IMG/VR virus record: IMGVR_UViG_3300048837_002307
Coordinates: 1-22,234 of that record
DNA from: a virus
Reading direction: 5' to 3' (one strand)
Length of the DNA: 22,234 bases
The translations under genes were made by a program, and so were the position numbers. Below are positions 7,231-20,467 of this stretch, one piece after another. The first letter of the stretch is position 1, and every line of letters begins with the position of its first letter. The notes under the pieces are model-generated. The model saw only the letters and a list, made by a program, of their open reading frames with translations, was not told where the DNA came from and ran no database searches.

Positions 7231-7660
7231 GAGTACAGCGATTTGCACGGAGCCCTCGAAGGACCGTTTGGGCAGTGCCTGCTCAACTTCTGCATCAGAA
7301 TCAAGTCAACGGGAATCAGGAATCGCACAGGTTAACTAGAAATCCAGCACTAGCCACTCGGCATGCCCAAGTCCCCTGCTACGTCTACTTACTCTATTCA
7401 CGGATATGCGGGCAGCGATTCTCTTTTTAAGTGATGGCTTGCAAGAGCCAATAATGACTGCCCTTACTCGTTCGTCTTAAACAAGCATTTGGGGAATTTC
7501 CCAAATCCCCTCTCATGGAATTTTAGCAATTTTCTGATTTCATTTTTCCTGATTTTCCTTGGTTTTGCTGCAACCTCGCCAAGGAATTTTCTTCTTTTCC
7601 CAGCCGTTTTGGGAAATTTCGCCAGTAGCGGACGACAGGTCTGATTCACATCAGGAAACA
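7231..7660. other. non-coding stretch with dyads before the sigma-like gene
   Basis: No convincing gene is seen. ATTTGGG (7487-7493) pairs with CCCAAAT (7500-7506). TTCCTTGG (7555-7562) pairs perfectly with CCAAGGAA (7579-7586) and is followed by a T-rich tail at 7587-7598, so it could terminate transcription coming from the nuclease gene. The 7500-7600 region is strongly T/C-rich on the plus strand, unlike the flanking coding DNA. Confidence 0.45.
7555..7598 (+). terminator. possible Rho-independent terminator
   Basis: A perfect 8-bp stem (7555-7562 with 7579-7586) and a 16-base loop are followed by a tail of mostly T (7587-7598). It lies about 320 bases after the nuclease stop and 145 bases before the sigma-like start. 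The loop is long, which weakens the call. Confidence 0.4.
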
Positions 7661-7739
7661 GCCCGCAAACGAGCGGGTGGGCCTCACAGGCTTTCACTCT
7701 CGGACCTGCCAGCCTGTGGGGCCTCGAACACGAGGTCCG
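7661..7739 (+). promoter_or_regulatory. structured leader of the sigma-like gene (pseudoknot / SD-sequestering hairpin)
   Basis: Several mutually exclusive RNA pairings are possible. GCCCGC (7661-7666) pairs with GCGGGT (7673-7678). GCCTCACAGGCT (7681-7692) pairs over 12 bases with AGCCTGTGGGGC (7711-7722), with one G-U. The loop of that stem holds CGGACCT (7701-7707), exactly complementary to AGGTCCG (7733-7739). Alternatively GGGCCTCG (7719-7726) forms an 8-bp hairpin with CGAGGTCC (7731-7738) over a four-base loop. The GAGG ribosome binding site (7732-7735), 7 bases before ATG 7743, is buried in either case. This is the architecture expected of a translational switch; no known riboswitch class was matched. 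Confidence 0.55.
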
Positions 7740-7742
7740 TTC

Positions 7743-20059: not shown

Positions 20060-20152
20060 CTTCGTATCTCCCAATCTTTGTTCGTGGTTGGCTGCCATCG
20101 TCAGGCCGATCGAACCACCGATCGACGACGCGGGTGTGGTCCGCGTTTCGGC

Positions 20153-20467
20153 TTACTCACCAAAGACCAGATCCGACAAACCCTCGCAGAGAAAATCCAC
20201 GATCACCTGGATCTCGGTATGGGCTGCCGGTACGTCCAAACCACGGTCGAAGTTGAACATGGTCTTACGATCCGAAATCTGCCCAATCCAAAGCTTCGAA
20301 ATCTTGCTTCGGCCCAGTTCGTATTCTTCGCTCTCCGCATGGTCGGCGAAAACAAGTGCTTCGAATCGGTACTGGTCGTTCATTTTGCCCTGCACCCAAG
20401 AGCCGCCAGCGCTCGCGGTGCGGTTGGTAATCTTGGTGATGGTCAGGTCCAGGTCGTTAGTTGTCAT
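20153..20467 (-). CDS. small conserved protein of unknown function (104 aa)
   Basis: Starts at ATG 20467 with CGGAGA upstream. The sequence has the order GGSWVQGKMNDQYRFEAL, then ELGRSKISKLWIGQ, then MFNFDRG, and a helical C-terminus (TEIQVIVDFLCEGLSD). From memory this resembles the DUF7678-type layout (W-x-G..Y-x-F...SKLWI..DRG), which I could not verify. The fold would be a small antiparallel sheet with a closing helix. A copy of the 40-nt repeated element lies about 39 bases upstream of the ATG. Confidence 0.8.
   Translation of the reverse strand: MTTNDLDLTITKITNRTASAGGSWVQGKMNDQYRFEALVFADHAESEEYELGRSKISKLWIGQISDRKTMFNFDRGLDVPAAHTEIQVIVDFLCEGLSDLVFGE

Follow-up and report, generated by a model that had tools for sequence, protein, structure and literature searches.

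Leaders in which a hairpin loop pairs with a downstream Shine-Dalgarno sequence, forming an H-type pseudoknot that masks the ribosome-binding site (RBS), are known from the preQ1-II and SAM-II riboswitches and from ribosomal-protein leaders. Among cellular sigma factor genes, rpoS and rpoH carry leaders that occlude the RBS. The leader analysed here, from a virus or mobile element of Planctomycetota, likewise combines a hairpin loop and a downstream Shine-Dalgarno sequence into a pseudoknot that could block initiation, but its loop can also pair with a strand upstream, which would leave the RBS open, it has no known ligand and no Rfam match, and the gene it would control is an element-borne sigma factor. 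As with rpoS and rpoH, the 5' UTR of the sigma gene plausibly restrains translation, although the architecture and the host phylum are different and neither a small RNA partner nor a thermometer is indicated by the data. RBS-masking pseudoknots are an already known kind of regulator; the sequence family, the second upstream partner and the placement on element sigma genes appear to be new. Searches against Rfam left the leader unmatched in the window, in seven loci up to an E-value of 0.5 and in ten loci at the gathering cut-off, and no description of this element was listed in full-text literature searches.

The window, meaning the whole stretch of 22,234 nucleotides analysed, is a virus record with phage-like recombination, primase and serine-recombinase genes. 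The sigma gene starts with ATG in the window and with GTG in some relatives, and its product contains both sigma region 2 (PF04542, 35.3 bits, cut-off 24) and region 4 (PF08281, 32.2 bits, cut-off 25.7), with a TIGR02937 match of 65.9 against a cut-off of 42.9. The neighbouring gene (8425-8658) has no Pfam match. A separate RNA, a full-length type II hammerhead ribozyme (RF02276, 52.3 bits, E 2.3e-8), lies on the minus strand at 20086-20153, in the right arm of the element.

Fold of the leader and its upstream partner

The leader and the gene that follows it comprise these features:

7619-7639 (+): conserved block TCGnCAGT-N7-GACAGG, 21 bases, of invariant length across the deep set of divergent leaders
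7636-7644 (+): 5' strand of helix U, CAGGTCTGA, pairing with 7700-7708 in the loop of stem-loop S1
7661-7678 (+): hairpin 1, with arms 7661-7666 and 7673-7678 (6 pairs)
7679-7724 (+): stem-loop S1, with arms 7679-7692 and 7711-7724 and loop 7693-7710
7700-7708 (+): shared loop segment TCGGACCTG, whose partner is either the 5' strand (7636-7644) or, through 7701-7707, the RBS (7733-7739)
7719-7738 (+): competing RBS hairpin, with arms 7719-7726 and 7731-7738 (8 pairs), exclusive with the lower half of S1
7733-7739 (+): RBS strand AGGTCCG, complementary to the S1 loop and overlapping the ribosome site
7743-8339 (+): ECF-like sigma-70 family sigma factor, 198 aa (Pfam Sigma70_r2 and r4, NCBIfam TIGR02937, PHROG 1740)

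S1 had been described in the original prediction as a 12-bp stem; the stem is present and extends to 14 contiguous pairs, two of them G-U. The 7-nt match between loop and downstream sequence was described correctly, CGGACCT (7701-7707) being the exact complement of AGGTCCG (7733-7739), which overlaps the Shine-Dalgarno sequence GAGGT (7732-7736). The sequence CGAGGT of the window is AGGAGGT in every close relative with upstream sequence. The competing hairpin does form the proposed 8 pairs in the window, where it is about equal in pseudoknot-free energy to full S1 (-37.4 against -37.0 kcal/mol), but its eighth pair is a peculiarity of the window: 18 of 19 close sequences lack it and have 6-7 pairs. 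The amount of complementarity exceeds chance expectation, as had been proposed: the fold of the 82 nt at 7661-7742 (-39.0 kcal/mol) was matched by none of 200 shuffles (mean -30.1, z -2.8), and while a stem of at least 12 pairs arose in 210 of 20,000 dinucleotide shuffles, none of them combined it with a 7-nt exact loop-to-downstream match.

The element reaches upstream to about 7619, beyond the start previously placed at 7661, and includes helix U (7636-7644 with 7700-7708; 9 pairs, one G-U), which was absent from the earlier description. This partner was recognised through the divergent homologue L053, in which the hairpin and stem sequences differ yet still pair and the RBS-to-loop match is gone, while the loop core is kept and finds its complement in a 5' strand some 60 nt further upstream. 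The near-invariant bases of the loop and the 5' strand are each other's pairing partners, and the core of helix U, ACAGG/CCTGT, hardly varies. The loop is predicted to serve one partner at a time, an exclusivity that follows from the sequence. The RBS had been held to be paired in both alternative structures; either the loop or the hairpin can indeed cover it, but the overlooked pairing of 5' strand and loop leaves it unpaired, so that it is not covered in all alternatives. A further pairing suggested by one fold, between the 5' strand and the first codons (UCUGA/UCAGA), is broken in L020 and L021 and was dropped.

Conservation and covariation of the pairings

The close relatives show a leader under strong constraint with little covariation. 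Across 17 sequences, the stretch between hairpin 1 and the start codon has a nucleotide identity of 90%, and that immediately before it 93-96%; third codon positions of the sigma gene reach 63%, and sequence further upstream 54%. Among 19 close sequences, 9 of the 12 S1 pairs counted never vary, and the helix between loop and RBS is paired in all 19, with 6 of its 7 pairs invariant and the remaining one changing only from C-G to U-G.

Since one deep alignment fails to align the stems, covariation at greater distance was assessed by swap tests, in which arms were exchanged between ten hand-drawn clusters comprising 21 leaders and the energy of each arm with its own partner was compared with that of the swapped pair. 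S1 covaries strongly (own -24.3 against swapped -16.3 kcal/mol, p about 1e-5, 10 clusters, 21 sequences), and two of its pairs show compensatory change within the L103 group (12 aligned leaders, 11 distinct). The pairing of 5' strand and loop covaries modestly (-17.0 against -15.2 kcal/mol, p 0.010, 10 clusters), with co-changes such as ACAGGUC/GACCUGU, ACAGGCU/AGCCUGU and ACAGGCC/GGUCUGU. Loss of pairing between the arms in homologues, which the original prediction had named as telling against it, was looked for, and the pairing was found to be kept: that of S1 survives complete sequence turnover in divergent loci, and hairpin 1 carries a compensatory change from C-G to U-A in 6 of 19 close sequences.

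The helix between loop and RBS has a narrower distribution. Beyond the close set, in which it has 7 pairs, it recurs with 8-12 pairs in L091, L103, L161, L140 and L141, giving 7-12 pairs in four of the ten clusters (the close set, L091, L103/L161 and L140/L141). In L091 the loop matches the RBS and AUG over 12 nt, and the same loop forms 12 pairs, with one bulge, with the 5' strand. The helix is weak or missing in the other six clusters (L053; L071; L078/L079/L117; L081/L100; L104/L118/L128/L129; and L105/L106, where it is partial), and is therefore not a defining feature of the family. Its swap test favours the own partner (-11.7 against -9.7 kcal/mol, p 0.003), a result driven by four clusters that share the word AGGTCCG and which may therefore reflect common descent. 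No compensatory change was seen in this helix in the alignable groups (the close set and the L103 group); in the L103 group 8 of its 9 pairs are invariant and one is variable, and the RBS also lies within a hairpin that is paired in 90% of cells with zero covariation.

This distribution bears on a simpler reading, in which S1 and the pseudoknot of 5' strand and loop form one fixed, constitutive fold that shields the mRNA or sets the position of the ribosome, and the loop-to-RBS pairing is a by-product of an anti-Shine-Dalgarno-like loop. S1 and the 5'-strand pairing are the features found throughout the family, the RBS pairing is limited to four of ten clusters, and the loop core ACCUGU is by itself partly anti-Shine-Dalgarno. 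Where the RBS pairing is present, however, it runs past the Shine-Dalgarno sequence into TCCG(G), and as far as AUG in the 12 pairs of L091, and the RBS of the window can also be covered by the hairpin of equal energy. A constitutive leader seems rather unlikely.

The constancy of the upstream block raises the possibility that the element acts as DNA, with the inverted CGACAGG/CCTGTCG and the block of fixed spacing serving as protein sites (operator, promoter or recombination) and the stems being incidental. The block has a constant length and adjoins palindromes such as GCGAAATTTCGC, so that part of it is probably an operator or promoter; these palindromes suggest a candidate repressed promoter there, and the left part of the block continues an imperfect palindrome, TGGGAAATTTCGCC, resembling an operator. 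No sigma-70 promoter was detected. As an explanation of the whole element, action at the DNA level is improbable, because the S1 arms change in step between clusters (p 1e-5), the 5' strand and loop covary outside the constant core (p 0.010), hairpin 1 covaries, the leader stops at the start codon of the first gene, and the block matches once in the window, where a scan of the whole length found no regulon of such blocks. Upstream of the leader, repeated palindromic sites resembling GGGAAATTTCCC (7487-7506 and about 7575-7620) are candidate operators, as are similar sites spaced by about two helical turns in L104, L118 and L128.

The original prediction had offered either a riboswitch or translational control by a protein or trans-acting RNA. 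The pairings support this interpretation in part, and nothing points to a small-molecule ligand. The topology of a pseudoknot occluding an RBS does resemble that of small translational riboswitches, in which the pseudoknot would be the aptamer and the RBS the expression platform. A metabolite riboswitch is nevertheless highly improbable, given that no Rfam riboswitch matches the leader, that the conserved bases of loop and 5' strand are nearly all explained by their mutual pairing, that the remainder of the leader turns over completely between clusters, and that the downstream genes are regulators of mobile elements, not metabolic genes.

Distribution, gene context and other leader types

The RNA family was found at 55 loci in Planctomycetota genomes and virus contigs, of which 25 are close (the window, L059 and L134 included) and 30 divergent (L053, L071, L078, L079, L081, L091, L100, L103-L106, L117, L118, L128, L129, L140, L141, L161, L168-L178 and L180). 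L093, which has S1 and the loop and lacks the 5' block, was excluded from the swap tests and from this count. Eleven virus contigs encode the sigma factor, as do twelve loci (76-82% protein identity) in planctomycete genomes, and the leader is present in all such loci with upstream sequence (L006 has none, and L008 is cut). One metagenome-assembled genome (G003) has close leader copies on four contigs (L015, L020, L021 and L134), three of them with a complete sigma gene, representing either several related elements or a mixed bin.

Searches for the block together with the loop gave 24 sites in 396 genomes of the Pirellula order, of which 20 were judged real, against 4 sites for a reversed-pattern control; in 301 genomes of another planctomycete order all 14 sites were real, with no control sites, and further virus contigs were also recovered. 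Of 19 sites in 392 genomes drawn from the whole phylum, 3 are real. A second viral scan with protein alignment found no additional loci. Because the sigma search across the order scored 8 candidates per genome and the filters of the model search were strict, locus counts are lower bounds. The exact block was found in 8 of 26 sigma loci scanned over 1500 nt upstream, and several others carry leaders of the different types described below, so this leader (class A) is not universal in the sigma family.

Several candidates were rejected as chance or coding matches: L029, L031, L033 and L036 from a pattern scan (L036 by a 28-base span like those of L031 and L033); L092, L094 and L095 from a model search (L094 by its poor alignment alone); the pattern sites L101, L102 and L107-L111; the Pirellula-order sites L112, L113, L120 and L131; 16 of the 19 phylum-wide sites, judged from matched strings alone; and 13 of the 15 stretches of one viral pattern search, the real ones being L103 and L161. 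Model matches on the antisense strand are meaningless and arise from the near-palindromic S1.

The leader precedes either the ECF-like sigma gene or, in one branch (L071, L104, L105, L106, L118, L128 and L129), the gene of a 108-109 aa protein upstream of sigma. In the deep set of 21, a sigma-like or small-protein frame directly follows the leader in 20 loci, and L117 is cut by the contig end. Among L168-L178, the frame chosen is uncertain for a few (L171, L172 and L178), which are not cleanly readable. The most divergent downstream genes (L103, L140 and similar) are putative sigma genes by position and resemblance. In the three small-protein-branch cases checked (L064, L065 and L071) some 660-690 nt separate the block from the sigma match downstream of it, so the leader comes first in the operon. 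The small protein (...LE[IV]KHGLPFR...) has no Pfam match above cut-off, and its gene lies directly 5' of the sigma gene in the cases checked.

A second leader type, class B, was observed 230 nt upstream of the sigma match in L054, L060, L061, L063, L064, L065, L067, L068, L070, L071 and L080. By eye and in single-sequence folds, it begins with a long hairpin rich in G+C; in several loci the loop of this hairpin, GTGGGC, has a match, GCCCAC, further downstream. Behind it the RBS is enclosed in a near-perfect hairpin, CTCCTCGCCGGCGAGGAG being one example. The arms of this RBS hairpin vary by locus and stay paired (CTCCTCGCC/GGCGAGGAG, TCCTTCC/GGAAGGA and CCTGTTGG/CCAACAGG). Class B (for example in L054, L060, L061 and L071) resembles class A in hiding the RBS of a homologous sigma gene, but is unrelated in sequence and architecture and is located between the small-protein and sigma genes, not at the operon head. 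A possible third type, recognised by eye upstream of sigma in L066, L069, L072, L074, L075, L076 and L077, follows the pattern GCCGG.GGGTGT ... CACCC ... CGACGGAG; here the front of the leader may be the pairing partner of the RBS region.

A proposed switch of sigma translation

Since the main loop pairs with either the RBS or the front end of the RNA, the leader probably switches sigma translation on and off, and the reading favoured here, on balance, is a cis-acting translational switch that relies on a single shared loop and lies in the 5' untranslated region of a sigma gene belonging to a phage or mobile element. The leader is presumably transcribed from the region of the conserved block (7610-7640). 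The 5' strand would be transcribed first and pair with the S1 loop before the RBS is made, so that the RBS is expected to remain unpaired. In the ON state, the 5' strand (ACAGGUCUGA type) and the S1 loop (UCGGACCUG) would form a pseudoknot, leaving the last-made RBS available and sigma translated. In the OFF state, the 5' strand would be removed by a protein, another RNA or processing, and the freed loop would pair with the RBS (AGGUCCG), or the local hairpin would close over it, blocking initiation. We infer that switching runs in this direction and that a trigger exists.

A broader scheme is possible though doubtful. It would make these leaders a dedicated class of regulatory RNAs of planctomycete phages and mobile elements, situated at the head of sigma operons, in which the 5' end and the RBS compete for one loop; an element or host factor, either protein or RNA, would switch sigma off by capturing the 5' end, and unrelated RBS-hiding leaders would have arisen on homologous sigma genes.

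The leader appears to represent an undescribed structured RNA family in Planctomycetota, in which, to our knowledge, few regulatory RNAs of mobile elements are known. The competition between its two pairings leads to a clear prediction that can be tested, and the presence of at least one other RBS-hiding leader type on homologous sigma genes suggests repeated selection for their translational control. The leader sits on the first regulator of the element operon, and could therefore decide whether the element wakes.
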